NCBI GenBank assembly: GCA_027014955.1
Contig: JALWDA010000096.1
Coordinates: 1-40,190, forward strand
DNA from: Desulfurococcales archaeon
GTDB taxonomy: Archaea > Thermoproteota > Thermoprotei_A > Sulfolobales > Fervidicoccaceae
Reading direction: 5' to 3'
DNA length: 40,190 bases
Every line of letters starts with the position of its first letter. The stretch's first letter is position 1. Shown here piece by piece: positions 16,071 through 29,808 of this stretch. The position numbers were made by a program, and so were the translations under genes. The notes below the pieces were generated by a model. The model made no database searches and was not told where the DNA came from. It saw only the letters and a program-made list of their open reading frames with translations.

Positions 16071-16904
16071 TTGTATAGGCTTTTTTCGTTTAAAATAGCA
16101 TACAATGGCTCCAACTTCAGGGGGTTCCAGAGACAGCCTGGTCTATATACTGTTGAGCATGCCATTTTCGATTCTCTGGAAAAGTCATCATGCACAGATG
16201 TCACGCCACCCCTATGGTACTCTTACGTGGGGAGGACCGATAGGGGGGTACACGCTATTGGGCAGACCCTCTCTTTGCTGGTAAGGGATGATTGTGACCA
16301 TATGCGCTTTTTCGAGCGTATGGAAGAATCGTCGAATTCGCAAGTATTGCCCTGGGCATACAGGTGGATAGACTCTCTAGAGTTCAAAGCAAGATATTGG
16401 TCACTTTGGAGGGAATACGTCTACGTGGATGAGATAAGAAACTATAACTGCCAAAGCATAGGAGACCTTACAAAAGCAGTCAAGGAAATAGAAGGGCGAA
16501 AGATACATGACTACGCATACAGGGGGGTCAAAAGGTTCTCAGAAGGATATTACTTAAGGAGAATAATAGCTGTGGACGCACACAGGGTTGGAGGCAAGAT
16601 AGTATGGCGGTTTAGGGGAGAGTCCTTTCCCCACAATTTTATAAGGAGAATAATATGGATAGCCCGCTCCATTCACTGCGGTGAAGGCATTATAGAGGCT
16701 TCGAAGACAAGACACCAAGGAACAGCTGAGCCAAACAGGTTGTTCCTCGTGGGGGCTAAGCACCCCATAACCCTGATACCAATTTACGAAAAGACTGAGC
16801 TCTACCATGTATTATCTACCCGTGTTTTTAGAAGAGAGTCTTCTGACCTCCGCTTGGTCTTTTCCTTCTACGAGAACGACTCCTCGCCCTACTCTCCCCT
16901 CTAG
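16071..16904 (+). CDS. truA: tRNA pseudouridine synthase A (TruA/Pus3 family)
   Basis: This is a 277-residue tRNA pseudouridine synthase of the TruA family, which modifies uridines in the anticodon arm (positions 38-40 in most homologues). The catalytic aspartate is D57 in YVGRTDRGVHA. The N-terminal KIAYNGSNFRGFQRQP and the later FPHNFIRRIIW segment are conserved family motifs. The TTG start at 16071 follows GAGGGGCGGA. The 3' end overlaps the 3' end of the oppositely transcribed rfcL by 77 bases, so the two C-termini are coded on both strands of the same DNA. The last 25 residues are outside the conserved core. Confidence 0.9.
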   Translation: MYRLFSFKIAYNGSNFRGFQRQPGLYTVEHAIFDSLEKSSCTDVTPPLWYSYVGRTDRGVHAIGQTLSLLVRDDCDHMRFFERMEESSNSQVLPWAYRWIDSLEFKARYWSLWREYVYVDEIRNYNCQSIGDLTKAVKEIEGRKIHDYAYRGVKRFSEGYYLRRIIAVDAHRVGGKIVWRFRGESFPHNFIRRIIWIARSIHCGEGIIEASKTRHQGTAEPNRLFLVGAKHPITLIPIYEKTELYHVLSTRVFRRESSDLRLVFSFYENDSSPYSPL

Positions 16905-18264
16905 CCTGGGTGGAATCGGTTACACCCGTGTCTCCCAGCGCTCTTGGAGGACTTTCCGCTACCGACTCTTCACGTGTGCTTGTAACTGGCTTCACCTTCA
17001 CCTTCTCCATATACTTCTTCACAGCATCGTCACCTGTTATAACGATAGCTTCATCAGGGGCAATGCCCAAGTACTTCATGATACCCGCACCCATTTCCGG
17101 GTCGGCCCTGTAAATAGCTCTCAAGACAGGTATGGTTTCAGCCAAGGCGGTCCTGATAGAGGTATGGGTCTCCTCAGCGATTTTCCTGGCAGCTCTGTTC
17201 AGCTTCTCGCGACGCTCCTTGGTCTCAGAGAGCATCCTTATTTTTTGAGGGAATTTGTAGCCCACCCATTTGAACTTGGTCCGTTTACGAGAGAATGCTA
17301 TGCCCGGCCCCAGCATGTCTATTACATAAGACAAAAGGTCCCATGAGCCCGACCTAATTATCCGGCCCCTATAAACGTCTGCCCTTGAGAGGGCGTCGAA
17401 CGCTCTGAGCATGTCCTCAGGATCGGTTAACTGGACAGGGATGTTCTCATTGAACCACTCTGCGAGCATATCATAGTCAAGTTGGCTGTGCGTTACGGCG
17501 CTCTTAGCCTGCCATGCATATCTTGATGTAAAAACTTTTCTCAGGGTTTCAAACGGGTCTAGCTCCCTATCTCTATAATACGTTAATGTCTTCGCAAGGC
17601 TTTCCGTGACTCTGCCATACGTCTCAGCTATAGCCTGGAGGTCATTTATGCACGCTCGTAGGTCTCCTTGGTTTCTCTCGTAGATTACCTTGAGCCCCGC
17701 GTCCTCGCAGTAAATCTTCTCTGCATCACATATCCTTTTAAGCACCGATAAAATATCCCGCATCCTGAGCCTCCTGACCTGAAGCATAAGCGCAGCGTCC
17801 CTTAGGGGCTTAAGACTCTGAGACCATGGGTCGTTAGCTGTGAGGATGACTGGATGCCTCGTGTTCCTAATCAGTTCCAATATGCCCTCAATAGCACCCT
17901 TGTCGGCAATCCCACTTAGCCCATCTACCTCGTCTAAAAGGATAATCCTTCTCCTTCCACTAAGAGATAACTGCTTGCTAGCCCTGAGCGCAATCCTCTC
18001 TATGTCCTCCTTCCTTCTAAAATCGCTAGCATTCATCTCCACAATGTCTAGTCCAAACTCGCCGGCAAGGGCTTCAACGAGGGAGGTCTTGCCCGTACCT
18101 GGAGGACCATATAGAAGAACTGCTTTTTTAGAGGGTATCCTCCCAGAGAGCCACTCCTTTATCCAAGCCACAAGGGCGCTCTTTGCCTCGTCTTGATCTA
18201 CATAATCATCGAGCTTCTTGGGCCTATATTTCACCACCCAGGGAAGTTTGGGAGAGGATGACAT
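16828..18264 (-). CDS. rfcL: Replication factor C large subunit (RfcL)
   Basis: This is the 478-residue large subunit of the archaeal clamp loader, which with four small subunits opens PCNA and places it on primed DNA. Visible motifs are VVKYRPKKLDDYVDQ (RFC box II), Walker A GPPGTGKT (residues 53-60), NASDFR and Walker B LLDEVDG. The C-terminal 50 residues are rich in Ser, Arg and Lys and end with GGQKTLF, a terminal PCNA-interacting peptide. The ATG at 18264 is chosen because AGGAGG lies just upstream; a reading 24 residues longer would run back into rfcS. It lies 29 bases after rfcS in one operon. Confidence 0.96.
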   Translation of the reverse strand: MSSSPKLPWVVKYRPKKLDDYVDQDEAKSALVAWIKEWLSGRIPSKKAVLLYGPPGTGKTSLVEALAGEFGLDIVEMNASDFRRKEDIERIALRASKQLSLSGRRRIILLDEVDGLSGIADKGAIEGILELIRNTRHPVILTANDPWSQSLKPLRDAALMLQVRRLRMRDILSVLKRICDAEKIYCEDAGLKVIYERNQGDLRACINDLQAIAETYGRVTESLAKTLTYYRDRELDPFETLRKVFTSRYAWQAKSAVTHSQLDYDMLAEWFNENIPVQLTDPEDMLRAFDALSRADVYRGRIIRSGSWDLLSYVIDMLGPGIAFSRKRTKFKWVGYKFPQKIRMLSETKERREKLNRAARKIAEETHTSIRTALAETIPVLRAIYRADPEMGAGIMKYLGIAPDEAIVITGDDAVKKYMEKVKVKPVTSTREESVAESPPRALGDTGVTDSTQARGESRARSRSRRRKRPSGGQKTLF

Positions 18265-18293
18265 TTCAGGACCTCCTGCATTATAAGGGGGTT

Positions 18294-19286
18294 CTACTTG
18301 GCGAGCCCCAGTTTCCTCCCAAGCATGGAAAGCCATGCGAGAAAGGCGTTCAGCTGTATCTCATCGTCAGCCCCTTCAACTAGCCTGAACTGTATCTCCC
18401 CAGTATAGTCGGCTATTAACACTTTCACGTCTTCCGGGATGTCCATGTCTCCTCGGAAAATCTCGCTGTGTATCTGCTTTATTATATCCAGCCCGCTCAA
18501 TCCATAGTTTACCATGAGCTTCCTGAGCCTATCACGCGCTGGGGAGAACTCACCCCTAAGCGCATACCTTATCAGTTCCCTCACCTCCTTAGGGTGGGCT
18601 AGTCCCACCACCCTATATACCGATTCAACCGTGACCCTCCCCACCGCACTTGCCGCCTGCAGCAAGTTGATGGCCTTCCTCATGTCCCCCTCGCTTATCT
18701 CGTATATAACATCGAGAGCGTCTTCATCATAGGTCACTCCCTCTCGCTCTGCAATCCACTTCAGCCTCTCAACAACATCTTCCTTCCTAAGGGGGGCGAA
18801 CCTGAAAAACGCCGTCCTGGACTGGATTGGCTCTATTATTTTGCTAGGATAGTTCGCTATCAGAATAAATCTGCTCGTTGGTGTGAATACTTCCATGAGG
18901 CGGCGAAGTGCCTGCTGAGCGTCAGCCGTCATGTTGTCTGCTTCGTCTAGTAATATCAGTTTGAAGGGAACATCGCCAGCTACTCTCGCCCTTGCAAATT
19001 CCTTGACCTTGGTTCGTATAACATCGATCCCACGTTCGTCGCTTGCATTCAATTCTAGAAGGTACCTCCTGTAATCCGGTCCATAAAGGTCGTGCGCAAA
19101 CGCTAGCGCCAACGTCGTCTTTCCCGTGCCAGGAGGCCCCGCGAACAGCATGTGGGGCGCATTTTTCTCCTTAACGAACTTTTTCAGCCTCTGGACAATC
19201 TCCTCCTGATTGACGACCTCATCTAGTGTTCTAGGACGGTATTTCTCAGCCCACAACACGTAGACGTCTTGGCCTGCTGAACTCAT
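18294..19286 (-). CDS. rfcS: Replication factor C small subunit (RfcS)
   Basis: This is the 330-residue small subunit of the clamp loader, an AAA+ ATPase. It carries WAEKYRPRTLDEVV, Walker A GPPGTGKT (residues 50-57), ELNASDERGI and Walker B LLDEADN. The arginine-finger motif, normally SRC in RFC, reads SRT in IQSRTAFFRF, so the arginine is kept and the cysteine is replaced by threonine. The ATG at 19286 gives the family's standard length. It is the first gene of the minus-strand rfcS-rfcL operon and diverges from Gins23-MCM across a 243-base intergenic region. No intein is present in this copy. Confidence 0.97.
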   Translation of the reverse strand: MSSAGQDVYVLWAEKYRPRTLDEVVNQEEIVQRLKKFVKEKNAPHMLFAGPPGTGKTTLALAFAHDLYGPDYRRYLLELNASDERGIDVIRTKVKEFARARVAGDVPFKLILLDEADNMTADAQQALRRLMEVFTPTSRFILIANYPSKIIEPIQSRTAFFRFAPLRKEDVVERLKWIAEREGVTYDEDALDVIYEISEGDMRKAINLLQAASAVGRVTVESVYRVVGLAHPKEVRELIRYALRGEFSPARDRLRKLMVNYGLSGLDIIKQIHSEIFRGDMDIPEDVKVLIADYTGEIQFRLVEGADDEIQLNAFLAWLSMLGRKLGLAK

Positions 19287-19382
19287 TGTCGCTCCCTTGA
19301 GCCACCTTTATAGTCTAGCTTAATTATTTATTTGGAACAAGGAGTATAAAATATAGTAACCAAAGACCATTCCCCCAAAACT

Positions 19383-19394
19383 CTATCCGGATAG
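19383..19394. promoter_or_regulatory. Perfect palindrome between rfcS and gins23
   Basis: CTATCCGGATAG is a perfect 12-base palindrome in the 243-base region between the two divergent replication operons. It could be the operator of a dimeric regulator acting on both, but no known site is recognised. Confidence 0.3.
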
Positions 19395-19529
19395 TTATTT
19401 TCCCCAGATAGAACAGGAGATAAGAACGGGCTTGCTTGTTCGATAAAACAACCAAACATTACAGTATGGACAACCGTATTTGACGAGCGTGTAGAACTCT
19501 AGATAGTCAAAGGAGTGGTGATGTAGGTA

Positions 19530-20096
19530 ATGGATAAAATGACCACTAGGCTGACGTTGCTAGAAAAGGCTTATGAGAACACGATGGCGAAGGTGATAGC
19601 CCTTAAGAGCATTGATAGGATGGTGCTTCCAGATGGAACCGTGATAACTGCACAAAGGGGAGACAAGATTGAGATACCCAGATGGATGGCCCGTGTGCTC
19701 GAGGGTGAAAAAACCGTATCTATCCTGTGGGATGATGTAAGTATTGAGGATATTATACGTATACACTATAGGGAGATGCAACGGGTCTCTCTTAAGGACA
19801 TAGAGCAGCTTCCTGATAACTTTTACTGGCTCGTCAGAGACTATCTGGCTAACCTTGAGAGGAGGATAAGAGAAACCCCCGAGCCACAGCTGATAGAGGA
19901 AAAGAGGAGAATGCAGGATTACTTAAATGAGATTGTGGACAAAAGGTTGCAGACTATAGCCTTGTCCTCATTAGATGAAAAGATGTCCAGCCAGATATCT
20001 GCTCGTCTAACACCAGAAGAGCAGGTGCTTTTAGACGAGCTGAGAAACTTAATAAGAGAATGGAGGTCCAAGATCTTGGGGAGCAACAGCGTCTGA
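19530..20096 (+). CDS. gins23: GINS complex subunit Gins23
   Basis: This 188-residue protein fits Gins23, the archaeal counterpart of Psf2/Psf3. It joins Gins15 in the GINS tetramer that activates the MCM helicase. The small beta-rich B domain comes first (about residues 20-65, KVIALKSIDRMVLPDGT to RWMARVLEG) and the helical A domain follows (about 70-185). This B-A order distinguishes Gins23 from Gins15. It lies 47 bases before mcm, the same pairing known from other crenarchaea. The family diverges rapidly, so domain order and context carry much of the call. Confidence 0.8.
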   Translation: MDKMTTRLTLLEKAYENTMAKVIALKSIDRMVLPDGTVITAQRGDKIEIPRWMARVLEGEKTVSILWDDVSIEDIIRIHYREMQRVSLKDIEQLPDNFYWLVRDYLANLERRIRETPEPQLIEEKRRMQDYLNEIVDKRLQTIALSSLDEKMSSQISARLTPEEQVLLDELRNLIREWRSKILGSNSV

Positions 20097-20143
20097 AAAG
20101 TCCCTTTTAATACAATGTTACATCATAGATAGGGTAGGTCCTA

Positions 20144-23100
20144 ATGGTTGAGGACACTGGATTGGATAGTGAGGCGCTTCTGGAAGAGATAGACTACGAG
20201 GCGAAGTTCGCACAGTTTCTAAGAGAGTACACGACTCCTTCGGGAGAGCGCAAGTACATGGAGCGCATAAAACAGATGATGACATCGGGCGAATACTCTA
20301 TTCAGGTGGACTTTCCTGACCTTTATCACTACGATCATACGCTTGCACTCCAACTTGAGAGAGACCCCGATGGGATGCTCCCGCTGTTTAATAATGCCCT
20401 GACCAGTGTCGTGTCAAACACTAATCCCCAATACCTCGAACAGCATGATAGGTTCTTTGTAAGAATTGTTAAGCTATTAAGAGCAACACCCATACGCAAG
20501 CTGGGAAGCGAATTCATAAACAGGCTAGTAATGGTTGAGGGCATACTAGTGAGGGCGACTCCTGTAAAAGAGAAGATGGTGAAGGCGGTCTTCAAGCATA
20601 TGGACCCCAAGTGTGGGGCGGAGTTCGAATGGCCGGAAGAGGGTGAGATTGGCGAGACGCTCGAGACCCCCCCATTCTGCCCCAAGTGTCAGAGACCGGG
20701 TAACATAAGGCTTGTACCAGAGAAGAGTAGGTACGTCGACTGGCAGAAAATAGTGATACAGGAGAGACCAGAGGAGGTCCCACCTGGCCAGATACCGAGG
20801 AGTGTGGAGGCCATTGTGAGCAGGGACCTAGTAGACAGGGCAAGGCCAGGGGACCGAATAAGCGCTGTGGGCGTACTTAGGATTCAGAACCCGGTTAAGA
20901 AGACCCTCCCTGTCTACGACAAGTTCCTTGAAGTAGTTGGTCTAGAGGTGAGTCAAAAGACTCTAGAGGAGGTGGAGATAACCCGCGAAGACGAGCAGAA
21001 AATACTCGAGCTAGCAAGAGATCCCTGGATAAGGAAGAAGATTATAGCAAGCATAGCCCCCGGCATCTATGGCTTATGGGACATAAAAGAAGCGATAGCC
21101 TTGGCTCTGTTCGGTGGGGTACCCAAGGAGACACAGGACAAGATGAGGATAAGGGGGGACATACACATTCTGTTAGTAGGAGACCCGGGAACTGCCAAGA
21201 GCGTGCCCCCAGGCACTATGATTCTACTGAGCAAAGGAGAGCCTGGCTCCGAGACCTGGGCAGACATATCGAAAGTAACTGATTATCTAATGGAAGAGCA
21301 TAGGGAGAAGATTGAGTTCAGCGGTGACGGCACGGAGATTCTCCGCACCGAGAGGGCTGGATACGAGTATTATACCCTCTCCGTGGACCCGGGTACCGGG
21401 ACCCCTAGGTGGTCAAAGATCCGGGCGTTTATCAGACACAAATCACCAGGGGCCATGGTGGAGGTACTTCTAAGAGATGGTACCCGAGTCCAGGCAACGC
21501 TCGACCACAGCTTCCTGGTTAAGAGGGGCAACATGCTGCATCCAGTGCAAGGTGCCGACCTTAGAAAAGGTGACCTCCTCCCCAAGTTGGAGGAGGGCCG
21601 AGTTATATATGTGCCAGTAGAAAAGGTCACTTTAACCAACCCTGCTTACGAGTATGTATACGATATCAGCGTTGAAAATGACGAGAACTTCCTTGTTTTA
21701 CCACAGGGAGTCTTCATGCATAATAGCCAGCTACTCCAGTATGTTAGCAAGATAGCGCCCCGAGGCGTGTACACAACTGGAAAGGGAAGCTCTGCAGCCG
21801 GGCTTACGGCAGCTGTCATACGTGAAAAGAGCACGGGAGAGTTTTACCTAGAGGCAGGTGCACTTGTTTTAGCAGATGGGGGAGTCGCTCTGATTGACGA
21901 GATTGACAAGATGAGAGATGAGGACAGGGTGGCGATACACGAGGCTATGGAGCAACAGAGTTTCCACCCAGATACTCTGATAGAGGTGCCTGGTAGAGGG
22001 ATGGTAAGGATAAGGGAGCTTGTGGATCATGCTATTGGGCGTTATGGGGGAGTGAGGATTGGAGACACTATATATGCGAGAAAGGTTCCAGATGACCTGT
22101 TATTACAAACCACAGATTTCCGAGAGGTTATGAAAACCAAGCCCTCAAAGCTGAGCAAGCACAGGACCAATGGAGAGTACCTACGCGTTACATTCTCCAA
22201 CGGCTACAGTGTTACAGTCACACCCGAGCACCCCTTCTACATTCTAACTAGTGACGGTATAACAGTAATCCAGGCCTCTGAGCTAAGCGAGGGCATGCTA
22301 GTACCAGCGGCTCCCGGCCACGGCGGCACTGCTAGGCAAGAGGTTGTGGCCAAGGCCCTTAAAGAGCTCTACGATAACCTGTTCCCTAGGATGAAGTGCC
22401 CCCGCCCCTTCACGGCGGACAGGCATGAGGTAAAAATGTTGATAGAGTCATGCAAAACGAACATGCCACAAGACCTTCTAGAAAAGTGGTCCCACCTACT
22501 CGATGACTTGGACAAGATATCTTCACTAGAATGGCATGAGGTAAAGAAAGTGGAGAGGATAGTGGATGAGGACAATGTGTGGGCCTATGATGTGACTATT
22601 GAGCCCACGAGGCGCTTCACATCATCTGGCGTAGTTCTCCATAACACTGTTAGTATAGCAAAGGCGGGGATAGTGGCCCGTCTCAATGCACGCTCAGCGG
22701 TCATAGCCGCAGGCAATCCAAAGTATGGCCGCTATGCTGAGGGGCGCAGCATTACGGACAACATTAACCTGCCAGTAACGATACTTAGTAGGTTCGACCT
22801 GATATTCATCCTCAAAGACAAGCCGGATGTAGCGAGGGATGCAGCCCTGGCTTCCTACGTTCTAAAAGTTCACAGAGAGGCCGAGGAAATCAAGCCGGAG
22901 ATACCTACTGACCTGCTCAAGAAATACATTAGCTATGCTAGGAGGAACTTCAAGCCACGGATAACCGAGCAGGCGAGCGAGATGCTTCGGAACTTCTATA
23001 TTGAAATGAGGAGAATAGGGGAAACGGCCAACATAATAGCAATAACAACAAGGCAGCTGGAAGCCCTAGTCAGGCTAGCCGAAGCCCATGCACGTATGGC

Positions 23101-23449
23101 GCTTAAGGACGCGGTCACTGAAGAAGACGCTGCTGAGGCTATTAGGCTTATGAGGGTCTTCATGACCCAGGTAGCCGAACAGGAGGGAATGGAGGGGGTA
23201 CCCGACATTGACGTGCTAACAGGCTTTCCAAAAAGTCGTCGGGAGAAGATAATGCTTATCGACGATATTGTGAGGCAGATAACCTCAAGTGACCCAACGA
23301 AACAGTGTGTTACTGAGAAGGAGATACTTGAAAAAGCTGTGCAGAAGGGACTCAAGGCCCAGGAGGTAAAGGAGTTACTTAGAAAAATGTATAGAGAAGG
23401 CATACTGTATGAGGTAAGAATGGGGTGCTATGGTAGAACGCCTACATAA
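20144..23449 (+). CDS. mcm: Replicative DNA helicase MCM precursor with two inteins
   Basis: This 1101-residue precursor encodes the replicative helicase. Removing two inteins (residues 353-527 and 606-834) leaves a 697-residue MCM, the normal crenarchaeal size. The N-terminal domain has a zinc-binding region (PKCGAEFEWPE, then FCPKCQ). The AAA+ core carries Walker A GDPGTAK/S, split by intein 1, then Walker B ALIDEIDKM. HEAMEQQ/T is split by intein 2, and the arginine-finger motif SRFDLIF follows. A winged helix ends the protein. The frame is intact throughout, with no stop or frameshift, so splicing is probably functional. It is co-oriented with gins23 and is followed by hel308 in the same direction. 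Confidence 0.97.
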   Translation: MVEDTGLDSEALLEEIDYEAKFAQFLREYTTPSGERKYMERIKQMMTSGEYSIQVDFPDLYHYDHTLALQLERDPDGMLPLFNNALTSVVSNTNPQYLEQHDRFFVRIVKLLRATPIRKLGSEFINRLVMVEGILVRATPVKEKMVKAVFKHMDPKCGAEFEWPEEGEIGETLETPPFCPKCQRPGNIRLVPEKSRYVDWQKIVIQERPEEVPPGQIPRSVEAIVSRDLVDRARPGDRISAVGVLRIQNPVKKTLPVYDKFLEVVGLEVSQKTLEEVEITREDEQKILELARDPWIRKKIIASIAPGIYGLWDIKEAIALALFGGVPKETQDKMRIRGDIHILLVGDPGTAKSVPPGTMILLSKGEPGSETWADISKVTDYLMEEHREKIEFSGDGTEILRTERAGYEYYTLSVDPGTGTPRWSKIRAFIRHKSPGAMVEVLLRDGTRVQATLDHSFLVKRGNMLHPVQGADLRKGDLLPKLEEGRVIYVPVEKVTLTNPAYEYVYDISVENDENFLVLPQGVFMHNSQLLQYVSKIAPRGVYTTGKGSSAAGLTAAVIREKSTGEFYLEAGALVLADGGVALIDEIDKMRDEDRVAIHEAMEQQSFHPDTLIEVPGRGMVRIRELVDHAIGRYGGVRIGDTIYARKVPDDLLLQTTDFREVMKTKPSKLSKHRTNGEYLRVTFSNGYSVTVTPEHPFYILTSDGITVIQASELSEGMLVPAAPGHGGTARQEVVAKALKELYDNLFPRMKCPRPFTADRHEVKMLIESCKTNMPQDLLEKWSHLLDDLDKISSLEWHEVKKVERIVDEDNVWAYDVTIEPTRRFTSSGVVLHNTVSIAKAGIVARLNARSAVIAAGNPKYGRYAEGRSITDNINLPVTILSRFDLIFILKDKPDVARDAALASYVLKVHREAEEIKPEIPTDLLKKYISYARRNFKPRITEQASEMLRNFYIEMRRIGETANIIAITTRQLEALVRLAEAHARMALKDAVTEEDAAEAIRLMRVFMTQVAEQEGMEGVPDIDVLTGFPKSRREKIMLIDDIVRQITSSDPTKQCVTEKEILEKAVQKGLKAQEVKELLRKMYREGILYEVRMGCYGRTPT
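21200..21724 (+). other. Mini-intein 1 in MCM, inside the Walker A motif
   Basis: This 175-residue insertion splits the P-loop between K352 and the next native serine: GDPGTAK / intein / SQLLQYV. It starts with serine as the first nucleophile (SVPPGTMILL, block A). It has TLDHSFLV with the block B Thr-x-x-His and VYDISVENDENFLV as block F. It ends in HN before a +1 serine. At this length there is no room for a LAGLIDADG endonuclease and none is seen. Boundaries are set by matching the uninterrupted MCM motif; the first Ser and the +1 Ser make a one-codon shift at the edges formally possible, but HN fixes the end. Confidence 0.93.
21959..22645 (+). other. Mini-intein 2 in MCM, downstream of Walker B
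   Basis: This 229-residue insertion lies in HEAMEQQ / TVSIAKAGI. It starts with serine (SFHPDTLIEV, block A). It has VTPEHPFYIL as block B and VWAYDVTIEP as block F, and ends in HN before a +1 threonine. About 80 residues separate blocks A and B and about 100 separate B and F, but no LAGLIDADG-type dodecapeptide is visible. It may be an intein that has lost its endonuclease and kept linker sequence. Compared with intein 1 it differs in length, the +1 residue and block sequences, so the two are not recent copies of each other. Confidence 0.93.
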
Positions 23450-23509
23450 AACGCCTGGTTAGAATACGTTGTGGCCTGCTTATTGTGTACTTTTCTTGAG
23501 GGGTTCTTT

Positions 23510-25645
23510 GTGCTAATTGACATGCTCGACATTGACGAGAGGCTGAAGGACTACCTTAGAGCACGGGGAATAACAAGGCTATATCCGCCCCAGGAGGAGG
23601 CGGTGCGTAAAGGCATTTTCAAAGGAAAAAACATACTCATGGTAACGCAAACCGCCTCCGGGAAAACATTCCTAGCAGAATTACTAGCCGTCAACAACGC
23701 GCTCATAGGTAGGGGAAAAACAGTCTACCTTACCCCTCTAAAAGCCCTAGCCACAGAAAAGCACAATGACTTCAAAAAATACGTAATGCTCGGCATAAGA
23801 ACTGGCATAAGTCTAGGCAACTATGACAAGTCGGATACCTTTCTAGAAGCCTTTGACATAATCATTACTACCTACGAGAAGATGGACAGTCTACTCAGGC
23901 ACAACCCCTCATGGTTCAGGATGGTGAAAACTATAGTCGTTGACGAGATACACTATTTGGACGACCCCGAGAGGGGCCCAGTCATAGAAAGCATCATTTC
24001 ACGCATAAAAACCCATCGTAGAGACATACAAATTGTATCACTTAGCGCCACTGTAGGCAACCCGGAGGAAATAGCAGACTGGTTAGACGCGGAACTCGTC
24101 GAGAGCACATGGCGCCCAGTACCCTTGAAGGAAGGCGTATATCTCAATGGAAGAATAATCTATAACGACGGCACCCAGACACCCGTTGTAAGGTACTTCT
24201 CTAATCCCCTCTTGGACTTGATAAAGGATACCCTTGACAAAGATGGTCAATGCCTCATCTTTGTCAACAGTCGACGCAGGGCAGTAACACTGGCGGAAAA
24301 AGCCTCCAAGCTACTGTCACTCCACCCTACCATAGAATCTAGAGAACTAGCAGCACAGGTATCCGAGTTGAGTGACGTTGAGAGCCTCAATCTCCTACTA
24401 AAGGAGCTAATAGAAAAAAGAATATCATTTCACCATGCAGGCCTCACCGTAGAACAGCGTAAGGCCATAGAGGAGGGCTTCAGAAAAGGCATCATAAAAG
24501 TCATATTCTCAACACCCACCCTTGCTGCAGGGGTCAACCTCCCAGCAAGAAGGGTTATAGTTGAAGATTATAGGAGGTACTCATATCAAGAAGGGATGAA
24601 CATGATAAAAGTTATCGAGTACAAGCAGTACGCAGGACGAGCAGGTAGGCCGGGGCTAGACGATTTCGGCGAAGCGGTGCTCATAGCACGTAGCGAGGCT
24701 GAGGCAGAGAAACTTACCAACATATACATTATGGGAGAGCCCGAGGATGTGGAAAGCAGTTTCCACACAATGCGGTCACTACGCATACACCTCCTAGCAT
24801 ATATAGCCTCCATGGGTATTGTTGCCGAGAACGAGATATTATCTTTCATAAAAAACACGCTTGCCCACATGCAATTCGAGAACAAAACGCAAGCAAGACT
24901 AAAAACAGCCCTATCTTTCCTTATAAAGAGCAGATTTATAGTTGAAGAAGACGGCAAGTTCAAGGCAACACAACTTGGCCGAAGGGTCTCTGAAGTATAC
25001 ATAGACCCCGCATCTGCACTAGTACTGCTCAGAGGAGCCTCAAAGAAAACAAAGAGATATAGCGACTTTGGCCTGATACACCTCATAACAGCCGCACCCG
25101 ACATGATACTCCTCTCAGTTAGGCGGAAAGAACTGGAGGAGCTCGACAGGCTACTCGACGCTTATATCCCAGACATGCTCCTGGGGTTCGAGGACATAGA
25201 GCATTCCGATTACGACCGTATATACCAAGAACTGAAGACATCCCTCCTCCTACTCGACTGGGTAAATGAGGAGAGTGAAGAAACAATAACAGAAAGATAC
25301 GACATCGGACCAGGGGACCTAAGGAACATTATTGAGACAGCGGAGTGGATAGCATATTCTTTCAGAAGAATCCTTGAAACGACGGGAATAAACAGGGAAA
25401 TGGTCCCTCTCTATGCAAGGTTGGAGCAACGGATAAGATATGGGGTCAAGCCAGAGCTCCTCGAACTTGTACGAATACCTGGCATAGGGAGGGTAAGGGC
25501 CAGGAGGCTATACAATGCAGGTTATAGGAGCATTGACGACATCGCTTCGGCATCGGTTACAGAGTTGAGTAAGATAAACGGTATTGGAAGACAGCTTGCC
25601 AGCAAACTTGTAGAGACTGCTAGACTTATCAAGAACATGCTCTGA
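23510..25645 (+). CDS. hel308: ATP-dependent DNA helicase Hel308 (Hjm/Ski2-like)
   Basis: This is a 711-residue superfamily 2 helicase that unwinds lagging strands at stalled forks and acts in recombinational repair. Motif I is TQTASGKT (residues 46-53), motif II DEIH, motif III SLSATVGN and motif VI QYAGRAGRPG. The C-terminal region has a helix-hairpin-helix pair (RIPGIGRVRARRLYNAG and INGIGRQLASKLV) as in the Hel308 domain IV/V ratchet and brake. The GTG at 23510 is chosen because GAGGGG lies six bases upstream; an earlier GTG at 23471 adds a cysteine-rich stretch foreign to the family. The gene follows mcm closely and converges on the radical SAM gene. Confidence 0.93.
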   Translation: MLIDMLDIDERLKDYLRARGITRLYPPQEEAVRKGIFKGKNILMVTQTASGKTFLAELLAVNNALIGRGKTVYLTPLKALATEKHNDFKKYVMLGIRTGISLGNYDKSDTFLEAFDIIITTYEKMDSLLRHNPSWFRMVKTIVVDEIHYLDDPERGPVIESIISRIKTHRRDIQIVSLSATVGNPEEIADWLDAELVESTWRPVPLKEGVYLNGRIIYNDGTQTPVVRYFSNPLLDLIKDTLDKDGQCLIFVNSRRRAVTLAEKASKLLSLHPTIESRELAAQVSELSDVESLNLLLKELIEKRISFHHAGLTVEQRKAIEEGFRKGIIKVIFSTPTLAAGVNLPARRVIVEDYRRYSYQEGMNMIKVIEYKQYAGRAGRPGLDDFGEAVLIARSEAEAEKLTNIYIMGEPEDVESSFHTMRSLRIHLLAYIASMGIVAENEILSFIKNTLAHMQFENKTQARLKTALSFLIKSRFIVEEDGKFKATQLGRRVSEVYIDPASALVLLRGASKKTKRYSDFGLIHLITAAPDMILLSVRRKELEELDRLLDAYIPDMLLGFEDIEHSDYDRIYQELKTSLLLLDWVNEESEETITERYDIGPGDLRNIIETAEWIAYSFRRILETTGINREMVPLYARLEQRIRYGVKPELLELVRIPGIGRVRARRLYNAGYRSIDDIASASVTELSKINGIGRQLASKLVETARLIKNML

Positions 25646-25702: not shown

Positions 25703-27268
25703 TTAACCACACTTTCTTAGCGAAGCAACCCTACCCTTGACGCTTCTTGATTTCCAACCGATAACCTCAACATCTACAATACAGGGCCTAGCAAGTTTAC
25801 CACGTAGTTCTACAGTGAGCGGATAGCTTCCCACTGGCCTGGCATAAGTAGAGCTATTCACGGTCTTCTCCACAAATACATCTTTTATAATAGTGCCTTT
25901 GGGGAATGCCATCCTTAGAAAGGCTGGGTCATAAACATGGCGGACTCTCCAGGTGAAGCTCTTAATATACTTCTCATGTCTTTTCAAAAGGCCCTCACTC
26001 CACCTTACAAAGAGGCGGGTATCAGGGAGGGGCATGGCCTTCCTAATATTTATCCGTCTGACCATTAAACCCTCCTTGAGAAGGCGGTCCAAGAAGTCCA
26101 GGTTTTTCTCAAAGGTCTTGCTAGTCTCGCCGGGTAGGCCTAGGACAAAGTTTATTCCCGGGAGAAGATGGGGCATGCCATTACAACCGCGGTGGGAGCC
26201 TATCTGGTTGACTAGTCTTATGGCTTTTAAAGTCTCATCGGGTGTTGTGTTAAGATTATTCGCTTTTATGACGCGCTCATCCGCACTTTCTAGCCCCATT
26301 GCGGCTACATCGCCGGGCGTGTGATACCTTACAATTGCCTTGAGCGCCTCTATGGACTCTTTCTCATTCCTGGCTATGGTGCCTGGGTTAACATTGTCTA
26401 TGTGTATGACAGAGTCGCTGACGACCTGCCTGAGTCCTCTGAATAGTTTTTCCAGTGCATTAGGGTTGGGTTTCGGGAATTCGTCTACGCCAATCGAGCT
26501 TGTTCCATAGACAAGTATATCAGCCTGTCTGCCCACCCTGAATGCCCTTACACCCTGCTTGTAGAGTGCTTCAGCCTCCTTTATTACTGCATTCATGTCT
26601 CTCATCAGAGGCCTCCCATAGAGAGGCTCTACACAGAAGGAGCATCCGCCAGTTATCCAGCGTGCACATCCACGGTAGGTCTCAAGCTCTGCTATTAGGT
26701 TATAGCCATAGTTGGGATGCTGCCTGACAATCTTCGCTCCTAGTATGCTAGCCTTATTAACAAGGTTATAGTCCTCTCTCCTTCTCCAGGGCTCAGCCTT
26801 CTCAGGCCCCTCTACTATGAGGTCATGTAGATATACCTCGATATCTCCTCTTATCGAGGCATCATAGTATTTTTCTAGCTTCCTCGAAGACACTGCTGGC
26901 CTACCACCCTCTAGCCCCATTCCAAACTTTGCCGCTGGGCCAGCTAGGATAGTGAATGTCCTAGAAGCCTGCAGCCTGAGGCCAAGTTCTAGTGCTTCCT
27001 CTGCCTTTAGCGGGTCTGCTGAAAGGTACTTACCCGGTACAACTACACCTGCTATCACGATAGTGTATTTGGACGTATTTGCATCCTTGAAGAAGCTATC
27101 CCAATCGGACCTAGCCTGGTCTATTGTGTAGTATTTAATAATTGCGTCTTTTTCAAGTGCCCATATGGTACCCGCCGCATATCTTGGATAGACGTCTATA
27201 TATGGAGGCACGCCAAGTCCAGCGGGCTCGTCCGTGTACCCATCGAGTATAGTTATTTTGAGGACCAC
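25703..27268 (-). CDS. Radical SAM protein with CX7CX2C cluster motif
   Basis: This 521-residue radical SAM protein resembles the uncharacterised archaeal group COG1031. The cluster cysteines are C201, C209 and C212 in YRGCARWITGGCSFC, a CX7CX2C spacing instead of the classical CX3CX2C. The following segments EPLYGRP, FRVGRQADIL and GINFVLGLPGET fit a radical SAM barrel. The first 190 residues resemble a flavodoxin/B12-binding-like domain without a clear cobalamin motif, and the last 60 are beta-rich. The substrate is unknown. The GTG at 27268 follows GAGGAGGA and overlaps the end of the KaiC-like gene by 16 bases, so the two are coupled. Confidence 0.8.
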   Translation of the reverse strand: MVLKITILDGYTDEPAGLGVPPYIDVYPRYAAGTIWALEKDAIIKYYTIDQARSDWDSFFKDANTSKYTIVIAGVVVPGKYLSADPLKAEEALELGLRLQASRTFTILAGPAAKFGMGLEGGRPAVSSRKLEKYYDASIRGDIEVYLHDLIVEGPEKAEPWRRREDYNLVNKASILGAKIVRQHPNYGYNLIAELETYRGCARWITGGCSFCVEPLYGRPLMRDMNAVIKEAEALYKQGVRAFRVGRQADILVYGTSSIGVDEFPKPNPNALEKLFRGLRQVVSDSVIHIDNVNPGTIARNEKESIEALKAIVRYHTPGDVAAMGLESADERVIKANNLNTTPDETLKAIRLVNQIGSHRGCNGMPHLLPGINFVLGLPGETSKTFEKNLDFLDRLLKEGLMVRRINIRKAMPLPDTRLFVRWSEGLLKRHEKYIKSFTWRVRHVYDPAFLRMAFPKGTIIKDVFVEKTVNSSTYARPVGSYPLTVELRGKLARPCIVDVEVIGWKSRSVKGRVASLRKCG

Positions 27269-28086
27269 TCCTCCTCGCCCGAGTAGGCTTTTCTCCCCTT
27301 CTCGCGAGTCTCTCTCATTTGTTCCATCAAGCCCCTAGGTAGGTGTGCGTCTTCAACCCTCTTCTCGGTTGGTCTTACTACTATCATTCCTACTCCGGGT
27401 ACTATGGTTATCTCATGCGCTCTCAGGTCATGGTTCGTCTGCCTCATTTTTTCTACAAGAACGAATCTCTTAAGGACTCTTCTTACCACGAGCTTCTTGA
27501 ACCTTATGATGCCATCGGCGACATGCTCAAGTCCAAACCCGTAGGCCAAATCGCTCGTAACGGCGTACTGGGAAACAAGCAATGCGGTGACATCCCATTT
27601 GTACAGTACGCGTTTTACGTAATAGCTTATTTTCCTAGCCATTGCTGGCTTATCTATCCAGAATGCACTCATACTGTCCACAACTAGCCGGGTTCTTCCA
27701 TAACCAAGCTCCTTCTTAGCATCTATCACTTTTTGCACAAGCTCTTCGGGCTCGAGCTCTCTTATACTCCACTTATCGTCTCGTCCACGCATGAGCGCGT
27801 CTATTATTATCATCCTCTTTTCTGCTAGTGCCTTCGAAAAGTCAAAACCGAACTGCTGAGCCTGGTTTATTATTGACTCCCGGCTTTCTTCAGTCGTGAT
27901 ATAGATGACCTTGTCCCTATCCTGCACGCCTCTCCATGCAAAATGTATGCAAAATACTGTCTTGCCAGCGCCTGGCTCACCCACGACGGCTACAAAGAAG
28001 CCTCTGGGTATGCCTCCCTCTATGAGTCGATCGAAGCCTTTAACACCAGTAGCCAGCCTCTCGAGCTCCATTGGCTTCTCACACAC
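27253..28086 (-). CDS. KaiC/RecA-superfamily ATPase
   Basis: This is a 277-residue single-domain KaiC-like ATPase of the RecA superfamily. It starts with the typical LATGVKGFDRLIEGGIPRG, has Walker A GEPGAGKT (residues 36-43), an acidic pair in YITTEES, and Walker B RLVVDSMSA. It ends with a charged tail, EEEWSSK. Archaea carry many such proteins, linked to signalling, motility or DNA transactions; the role of this one is unknown. The GTG at 28086 is used; an ATG at 28071 would remove five residues. It overlaps the radical SAM gene and lies 63 bases after the winged-helix gene on the same strand. Confidence 0.85.
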   Translation of the reverse strand: MCEKPMELERLATGVKGFDRLIEGGIPRGFFVAVVGEPGAGKTVFCIHFAWRGVQDRDKVIYITTEESRESIINQAQQFGFDFSKALAEKRMIIIDALMRGRDDKWSIRELEPEELVQKVIDAKKELGYGRTRLVVDSMSAFWIDKPAMARKISYYVKRVLYKWDVTALLVSQYAVTSDLAYGFGLEHVADGIIRFKKLVVRRVLKRFVLVEKMRQTNHDLRAHEITIVPGVGMIVVRPTEKRVEDAHLPRGLMEQMRETREKGRKAYSGEEEWSSK

Positions 28087-28149
28087 TCTTTCCTAACATT
28101 GTTCTACAAAGGTTCGTCACAATTATATTAGACAGGGTTTTTCCAGCTC

Positions 28150-28425
28150 CTATTCGCTTGTTTTCTCCAATATCTCGGCTAGTAGAGGTATCTGGGGGTT
28201 CGTGTAATCTATTGAATATAGTCTTATCCTTCCTATTTTCTTTTCCTTGACAAGACCGAGACTCACGAGGGTTTCGAGGTGTTTTTCAACATTTTTGTGA
28301 TTAAGGCCAGTCATTTTTACTATTCTAGTAATGTTTATCTCTCCTTGGTTGAAGAGTGTTTTTAGAATCTTTATACGGCCTCTGCTCCCAAGCAGAGTTG
28401 TATCAATGTTGTTGTTTTGGTTCAT
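28150..28425 (-). CDS. Small winged helix-turn-helix DNA-binding protein
   Basis: This is a 91-residue winged-helix protein of the ArsR/MarR-like fold. The recognition region includes GEINITRIVKMTGLNHKNVEKHLETL, shown here only by position (about residues 28-53), and the wing is VKEKKIGRIRLYSID. There is no sensor domain or metal site, so it is a bare DNA-binding module. Its ATG overlaps the stop of orc1/cdc6 as ATGA (28422-28425), so the two proteins are made from one message. A role beside Orc1, at an origin or as its repressor, is an inference from this coupling. Confidence 0.8.
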   Translation of the reverse strand: MNQNNNIDTTLLGSRGRIKILKTLFNQGEINITRIVKMTGLNHKNVEKHLETLVSLGLVKEKKIGRIRLYSIDYTNPQIPLLAEILEKTSE

Positions 28426-29663
28426 CTCGCTTCTCCCGCTAGTTTGTTCTCTATGAGTTCTTCGACCTTCTTCTCTAGAACGTCTAGTGGAGCATTGCTT
28501 ATGCCTATAAGCGTGCTTTTTCCTCTAAAGCCCTTCCCACTTGTCTTGGTCTGTATTATCTTCATGTTCCTCATGTCCATGATGTACGTGTAAACCTGTG
28601 TATGTTTCCTTTTTTTCTGCCTAAAGTTCTCGCAGAGCATGTGATAGTTTTCTTCAACGTCTCCTATCCTAACAAAGCCTTCTCCCTTGTCTTTCAGCGT
28701 CTTTATTATTGCTAGTAGTAATAGTAGGTGATGTAACCCGAGAGCCTCTATAGTATCCTGGAGCATTGCTAGCTCCGGCTTTACTATTACGTGGGCCTTG
28801 CGCACGTCTTCTATAGTGACATACCCTCTTCCTTCGCTATCAGCGCTTTCTCCTGCCCTTACTAATATTTCTAGTGCGGTCCTAGCACTACCGGATCCAT
28901 CCTTATCGGCTCCCTCCAGGTCTGCAATATATCTTACCACATTGTCATCAATCACGCCCTCGTGGAACGCTAGGGGTATCCTGTCGCTTAGAATATCGTA
29001 TAATTCCCCGGATGAATAGGGGGGAAATCTTATGATATTCTTCACGAAGAACGTACTGGTAGCTGGCTCAAGAAGGTCAAGCACTTGGGAGCTCCTTGCT
29101 ATGAAGATGAAGTTTATCCTCTTTGTCCTGTGAGGTTCATCGTCGTATGCTCTGACAAGCGTATATGTAGAGCTGCTCCCAGGATTTGATGACACAAAAT
29201 AGTCAAACTCGTCGAGGGCTATTATGGTGTAGAGTTTTCTCCTGTCAAGTTCATCAAGAATAGCTCTCATCATCTCCTGTGTGCTCAGACCTCGTGGGGG
29301 GATATAAATTCCCAGCTCCTTTGCTATAGAGTGGAGTATCTGGGGTAGTGTACGTGCTTTGTAGCAGTTTACATGGACGTACTTTAACTTTATCCCACTG
29401 TTCGATGCCAGTGATGATATAGTCTTTCCGAATACGCGGGATGTAACAGTCTTTCCAGTGCCATAGCTTCCGACTAGTACTACCTTCTGGACGCTTTCCC
29501 CGGGGTTTGTTATTAAGTTCTTGAATGCGTTTGCGAGGCTCTTTAACTGGTTTTCTCTGTGGGGTAGGCGCTGGGGCAGGTATTCTGGGTATAGTTTGGC
29601 CTTGTCTTTGAAGACGCTGGGAGAGCTCAGAACGTCGCTTATTATGTCTTCTGCCGAAGACAA
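28422..29663 (-). CDS. cdc6: Orc1/Cdc6 replication initiator
   Basis: This 413-residue AAA+ protein of the Orc1/Cdc6 family binds origins and recruits MCM. It shows LPHRENQL at the start of the ATPase domain, Walker A GSYGTGKT (residues 65-72) and Walker B ALDEFD (D151-D154). A helical lid and a C-terminal winged helix (about 310-400, ending KSTLIGIS) follow. The length is normal. TTG at 29663 follows AGGGGA. A TATA-like GATTTAAACAAT lies upstream on the minus strand near 29695-29710. I did not find convincing origin-recognition boxes in the short upstream region, although initiator genes often lie at origins in archaea. Confidence 0.92.
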   Translation of the reverse strand: MSSAEDIISDVLSSPSVFKDKAKLYPEYLPQRLPHRENQLKSLANAFKNLITNPGESVQKVVLVGSYGTGKTVTSRVFGKTISSLASNSGIKLKYVHVNCYKARTLPQILHSIAKELGIYIPPRGLSTQEMMRAILDELDRRKLYTIIALDEFDYFVSSNPGSSSTYTLVRAYDDEPHRTKRINFIFIARSSQVLDLLEPATSTFFVKNIIRFPPYSSGELYDILSDRIPLAFHEGVIDDNVVRYIADLEGADKDGSGSARTALEILVRAGESADSEGRGYVTIEDVRKAHVIVKPELAMLQDTIEALGLHHLLLLLAIIKTLKDKGEGFVRIGDVEENYHMLCENFRQKKRKHTQVYTYIMDMRNMKIIQTKTSGKGFRGKSTLIGISNAPLDVLEKKVEELIENKLAGEAR

Positions 29664-29808
29664 TGTGTGTCCCCTGTTCTCTTAATAGCTATGGATTGTT
29701 TAAATCTATAGCGTATCGAAACTATTCTAAAACAAACAATATTACCGCTCTAAAGGGTAAAGCTACCAGTAAGGTTGTGCAAACGCATGAGCAAATAGGT
29801 GCACATTA

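Follow-up and report, generated by a model that had tools for sequence, protein, structure and literature searches.

Does an archaeal Orc1/Cdc6 protein act alone, or together with a protein encoded beside it? The question is raised by contig JALWDA010000096.1 of a heat-loving Desulfurococcales archaeon (GCA_027014955.1, family Fervidicoccaceae), a stretch of 40,190 nucleotides that is here called the window. It contains a gene for an Orc1/Cdc6-type protein followed on the same strand by a gene for a small winged-helix (wHTH) protein (Table 1), and the ATGA that an earlier note on this DNA had described as common to the stop of the former and the start of the latter was confirmed together with the coordinates. 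The same note had proposed that the small protein is a dedicated partner of Orc1. The pair is conserved in the order, beyond it in the phylum, and in Asgard archaea, and we consider it fairly probable that the two genes constitute one self-regulated DNA-damage regulator operon, in which the wHTH protein is a dedicated co-regulator of an Orc of the Orc1-2/Cdc6-2 type.

Conservation of the gene pair

The pairing was surveyed in 117 genomes of the order, of which 116 gave a match to the Orc protein and 102 one to the wHTH protein. The locus with the best Orc match, or in family f6 the locus of the wHTH-linked Orc, was fetched from 107 genomes, and the Orc position in one of these (G110) was guessed from the wHTH gene. 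The genomes not included among the 107 had an Orc cut by contig ends (G021, G031, G035, G048), a single weaker match (G051, G058, G097, G116), two weak matches (G038) or none (G055); judged by coordinates, G021, G035 and G048 carry the pair too. With an iterated profile, a wHTH open reading frame was identified immediately after the gene for the same Orc paralogue at 99 of the 107 loci, covering 11 families: 7/7 in the family of the window (f1), 15/15 in f2, 15/15 in f3, 3/3 in f4, 6/6 in f5, 15/15 in f6 (not an independent count, since these loci and the position in G110 were picked with the wHTH gene in view), 3/3 in f7, 12/13 in f8, 8/14 in f9, 1/1 in f10 and 14/15 in f11. None of 14 control loci with Orc1-1 or Orc1-3 genes has a wHTH gene on the Orc strand, and the pairing is therefore more than chance. 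A weak match to the wHTH profile (26.6 bits) was seen on the opposite strand near one Orc1-3 gene (L285, approximately 3.8-4.0 kb, minus strand).

Matches to the wHTH protein were found in 146 of 200 genomes of the phylum, order members included, and in 106 of 119 genomes of the Asgard archaea, the phylum of the Lokiarchaeon behind locus L004. An Orc gene is located just upstream at 57 of 60 wHTH loci tested elsewhere in the phylum (the stronger matches, one per genome) and at 27 of the 30 best-scoring Asgard loci (L004 and L266 are the same place and were counted once), numbers which, because both sets were chosen by wHTH score, show how often a wHTH gene stands beside an Orc gene and not how often an Orc gene has a wHTH gene. 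Three of the 60 loci are unpaired: that of G270, which lies at the start of a contig, that of G158, and an additional copy in G167, where the other copy is paired. The Lokiarchaeon G287 has four Orc genes and three wHTH genes; two of the wHTH genes form pairs with Orc genes, and the third stands without an Orc. Taken together, the three sets of loci support the idea that an Orc1 has a winged-helix partner gene dedicated to it, and an absence of the pair from every other genome, which the earlier note had considered, is clearly not what was found. The pair is widespread in related archaea, including the nearest known relatives of eukaryotes.

Starts were assigned by rule to 90 of the wHTH genes, while 9 further members got none. 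The exact four-base overlap is present in 21 of the 90, another overlap in 31 and no overlap in 38. The overlap is thus common but not universal, which does not support the obligatory co-translation that had been suggested for the two genes, and a translational coupling of Orc and wHTH, though not universal, is plausible.

A winged-helix partner of Orc1-2 was not mentioned in the literature searched, most subscription journals and all supplements being beyond reach, nor in the available passages of PMC9738581, PMC10470591, PMC6934391, PMC2246294, PMC2643942, PMC3718332, PMC7617429, PMC5333045, PMC4010727 and PMC3984812. The pair is apparently undescribed so far, and could be annotated somewhere.

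Identity of the paired Orc

The window Orc scores 530 bits against the ORC1-type family NF001623 of NCBIfam (cut-off 311) and contains the Cdc6_lid and Cdc6_C domains. In comparison with proteins of solved structure, it scores 228 bits to Cdc6 of Pyrobaculum aerophilum (1fnn) and 165 bits to ORC2 of Aeropyrum pernix (1w5s), but only 134 bits to 2qby_A and 86 bits to 2qby_B. Genome G089 of family f11 has three Orcs, one of which matches 2qby_A (Orc1-1, 555 bits) and another 2qby_B (Orc1-3, 647 bits); the third, which is the paired one, matches neither, which by elimination leaves it as Orc1-2. In G027 the paired Orc corresponds to the 1w5s ORC2 (893 bits), and in G167 to the 1fnn Cdc6 (868 bits). 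A wHTH gene thus follows the genes matching both structures, whereas the solved structures list the Orc protein alone. In a phylogeny of a chosen subset of 118 rows, inferred by a quick method that gave a long-branch warning and in which five Asgard loci had no usable Orc, a branch with a support of 100 in the Shimodaira-Hasegawa-like approximate likelihood ratio test separates all paired Orcs from Orc1-1, Orc1-3 and one unpaired Lokiarchaeal Orc.

A close counterpart in the literature is the orthologous Orc1-2/Cdc6-2 of Saccharolobus islandicus (SiRe_1231). It has been described as a non-initiator, ATP-switched damage-response regulator that binds ANTTTC on its own promoter (PMC9738581, in the passages available). 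The basic wing residues at its four DNA-contact positions (R353, R354, R381, R383) have counterparts in R352, K353, R380 and K382 of the window protein, as mapped via the G089 protein numbered from TTG, in which E154 of the published account is two residues off the Walker B glutamate. Published cdc6-2 primers fit the paired genes of f11 loosely, with 3-6 mismatches, at corresponding places in G089, G077, G101 and G011, and just one of the two primers matched in G113 and G032. By sequence comparison, the window Orc is an orthologue of Orc1-2/Cdc6-2 and not an Orc1-1-type initiator. The term initiator, used in the earlier note, is not supported for a protein on this side of the tree, given the published account of the Saccharolobus regulator; a replication initiator as the first reading was rejected on the low scores to 2qby_A and 2qby_B, the tree position and the elimination in G089. 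The publications on SiRe_1231, in their available passages, deal with Orc1-2 on its own, with no mention of a wHTH protein.

Features of the wHTH protein

The window wHTH protein matches the Pfam family HTH_5 (29.8 bits, cut-off 22). An AlphaFold model, with a mean predicted local distance difference test score of 86, has an ArsR-like fold, and the nearest solved folds are ArsR/SmtB repressors (template modelling scores 0.7-0.8). The wing has the motif G-R-x-R. Among 58 aligned members, positions 66 and 68 are arginine or lysine without exception, N31 is kept in 55 and G65 in 54. The conserved wing and recognition helix suggest that the protein is an active DNA binder. It differs from the ArsR/SmtB repressors in that it is paired with an AAA+ protein, falls below the metalloregulator cut-off (NF033788, 46.7 bits versus 55) and contains no cysteine; a metal-sensing ArsR protein was rejected on this score. 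By description, WhiP, the initiator at oriC3 of Sulfolobus, is another winged-helix protein tied to archaeal replication, but it replaces Orc1 at its own origin (PMC4010727, in the passages available). An identification of the wHTH protein with Saci_0902, guessed from the numbering in PMC2246294, was dropped because the G089 gene between orc1-2 and Gins23 differs: it encodes a protein of 156 residues with no family match.

An extended operator shared with radA

The sequence AATAGTTTCGATACGCTATAGATTTAAA stands upstream of the window Orc gene, with ANTTTC at 29723-29718 on the minus strand, upstream of the TATA box in the Orc promoter. This is also the arrangement in SiRe_1231, which has ANTTTC in its own promoter just upstream of TATA, and UV (ultraviolet)-inducible promoters in Sulfolobus contain ANTTTC at the corresponding place (PMC5817253, in the passages available). 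The order of operator and then TATA recurs in the family members, and ANTTTC is located within 100 nucleotides upstream in 7/7 promoters of f1 and 15/15 of f11. Promoters were counted at 104 of the 107 loci (G110, G062 and G006 were dropped because the upstream region was missing or the start unknown), and 49 of them have ANTTTC at positions -100 to -25, compared with 10.0 expected.

The published site is the core of a longer element. The window operator matches the family pattern exactly, as one of two matches in the window genome, and the longer operator pattern occurs once in the window (0 expected). A matrix of the extended element, trained on the promoters of f1 and f11 and applied at p<=0.01, matched 16 of 54 other Thermoproteota promoters (0.5 expected; 7 in the reverse-strand control), eight of which are in f14, and 4 of 28 Asgard promoters (0.3 expected; 0 in the reverse-strand control). 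The f1 pattern ANTTTCGRNNNNCTA gave 18 matches in five family genomes, of which the positions alone are informative because the backwards pattern outnumbers it: five belong to this operon, three to radA and one to mre11, and the other nine are mostly within genes. A protein search turned up three more radA genes (G029, G057, G048), each with ATTTTCG directly ahead of a TATA-like sequence. Hence, the element precedes radA in all six relatives in which radA was found, and mre11 in one. Relative to SiRe_1231, the extended operator and radA as a common target in the family of the window are new, and they provide a ready test of the regulon.

A two-protein regulator operon

The conserved pair, the identity of the paralogue, the operator and its sharing with radA are established by this analysis, and they are consistent with the self-regulated damage-response operon put forward above. 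In such an operon, Orc1-2 and the wHTH protein would be co-produced and would have their operators in common. Orc1-2 would bind the ANTTTC core just upstream of TATA, both in its own promoter and at repair genes (radA, and mre11 in one relative), and it would be switched on by binding ATP and off by hydrolysing it, as published for Saccharolobus. For the wHTH protein, the most likely role would be to occupy the conserved YAACTCTC-like flank in the extended operator or to tune the occupancy by Orc1-2. By analogy with Saccharolobus, Orc1-2 is probably used in the same way in this archaeon, including induction by damage. To our knowledge, no master regulator of the DNA-damage response other than Orc1-2 has been described in archaea. 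A DNA-binding partner that is encoded beside it and conserved in both Thermoproteota and Asgard archaea is an obvious candidate for a component that this response still lacks.

Several observations weigh against this proposal. Eight of the 107 order loci lack the wHTH gene although Orc1-2 is kept, with no remnant detected by tblastn, and one such genome (G022) keeps the ANTTTC site, which means that the wHTH protein is not strictly required. The function of the wHTH protein, its physical contact with Orc1-2 and the division of labour on the operator are predictions. In the order promoters outside f1 and f11, the extended element is matched about as often forward as reversed (11/82 versus 13/82), and the backwards f1 pattern gave 53 genome matches versus 18 for the real one. 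A protein search detected no radA in the assembly of the window; the incomplete assemblies without a detectable radA are G000 and G064. Finally, the paired Orc is the only Orc1 in 15/15 Pyrobaculum/Vulcanisaeta-like (Thermoproteales-like) genomes (f20 and f29; for example L280 and L201), where it may thus initiate replication.

A broader reading, which we put forward tentatively, is that Orc1-2 and the wHTH protein represent an ancient two-protein Orc module that predates the split between Thermoproteota and Asgard archaea. The wHTH protein would then be an actual subunit, responsible for recognizing the second half of a bipartite operator, and the first dedicated partner of an archaeal Orc. 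In some lineages it would serve in the control of damage, and in lineages with no other Orc1 in the licensing of origins. If the wHTH protein binds Orc, the archaeal Orc is no longer a one-protein machine, which bears on the origin of the multi-subunit eukaryotic origin recognition complex.

It is rather unlikely, on balance, that the wHTH protein never meets Orc1-2 and is simply a local autorepressor or an ArsR-like stress sensor for the operon. Its fold and the HTH_5 match fit such a role, as does a second, inverted ANTTTC-like element, GAAANT, which overlaps the start region in 53 of the 104 promoters, compared with 4.8 expected (loci L066-L172). The variant GAAA[GC]T is present in 18 of 24 cases for this gene versus 1 of 50 other genes with a GGTGA ribosome-binding site; in f11 and f10, GAAANT may be coding sequence, read as MK[VL]. 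However, the score is under the metalloregulator cut-off, cysteine is lacking in the window protein, the published Orc1-2 site forms the core of the operator, and the pairing with one type of Orc paralogue is kept from Asgard archaea to Sulfolobaceae.

We regard as improbable the alternative that the paired Orc initiates replication, with the wHTH protein as its origin-binding or helicase-loading partner. It would account for the genomes in which the pair supplies the sole Orc1, for the match between the paired Orc of G167 and 1fnn Cdc6, and for the location of the window pair in an island with RFC-L, RFC-S, Gins23 and MCM. Yet Saccharolobus Orc1-2 is reported as a non-initiator, Cdc6-2 of A. 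pernix did not bind oriC1 (PMC5333045, in the passages available) while the G027 gene matching its ORC2 structure is paired, and the operators are common to radA and mre11. Mini-origin recognition box (mini-ORB) repeats with at most one mismatch were absent at the paired loci checked and present at the orc1-1 locus of G089, a weak test because the Orc1-1 locus of the window genome is also without them. The window contains one mini-ORB match with two mismatches, compared with three expected, and an origin at this locus inferred from mini-ORB repeats was rejected, on the same weak test.

Gene neighbourhood

Genes for RFC-L, RFC-S, Gins23, MCM and Hel308 at 16828-25645 of the window adjoin the Orc/wHTH pair, in agreement with the replication island around cdc6-2 in Sulfolobus solfataricus (PMC2643942, in the passages available). 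That the adjacency of Orc and wHTH is passive synteny within this island is highly improbable: an RFC-large-like gene on the opposite strand is nearby in 75 of the 107 loci and moaC directly follows the wHTH gene in 45 (tblastn; both named from the G089 member), but the wHTH gene stays while its downstream neighbours vary (moaC, KaiC, others), and a single syntenic block is already contradicted by the persistence of the pair in Asgard archaea and in further families of the phylum.

Table 1. Features of the Orc/wHTH locus in the window
Feature	Position	Strand	Basis or remark
Orc1-2/Cdc6-2-type protein, 413 aa, TTG start; AAA+, lid, C-terminal winged helix	28422..29663	-	NF001623, PF22703, PF09079
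Winged-helix (wHTH) partner, 91 aa, ATG start	28150..28425	-	Pfam HTH_5
KaiC-like ATPase	27253..28086	-	TIGR03881; downstream neighbour in the family of the window only
B12-binding/radical SAM-like protein	25703..27268	-	Radical_SAM PF04055; downstream neighbour in the family of the window only
Operator-like element AGTTTCGATACGCTA, extended form of the published Orc1-2 site ANTTTC	29709..29723	-	Family-pattern match
TATA-box-like sequence TATAGATTTAAA, directly downstream of the operator	29699..29710	-	Read from sequence

In the window, the wHTH gene is followed by genes for a KaiC-like ATPase (TIGR03881, 375 bits, cut-off 248) and a radical SAM-like protein, which distinguishes the locus from that of SiRe_1231. 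The gap of 63 nucleotides between wHTH and KaiC given in the earlier note is correct, and the KaiC and radical SAM genes overlap by 16 nucleotides, all on the minus strand. The wider four-gene unit that had been suggested finds no support, since KaiC follows in 5 and radical SAM in 6 of the 107 loci (tblastn), all within f1; a conserved four-gene operon was rejected because this order is limited to that family. Where moaC is present, its median offset from the wHTH gene is -4 (for example L127, 2678-3136), an apparent link of molybdenum-cofactor synthesis to the operon. An intein interrupts the MCM helicase gene of the window (20144-23449), and inteins are also present in RadA of family members (L297, L300, L308).

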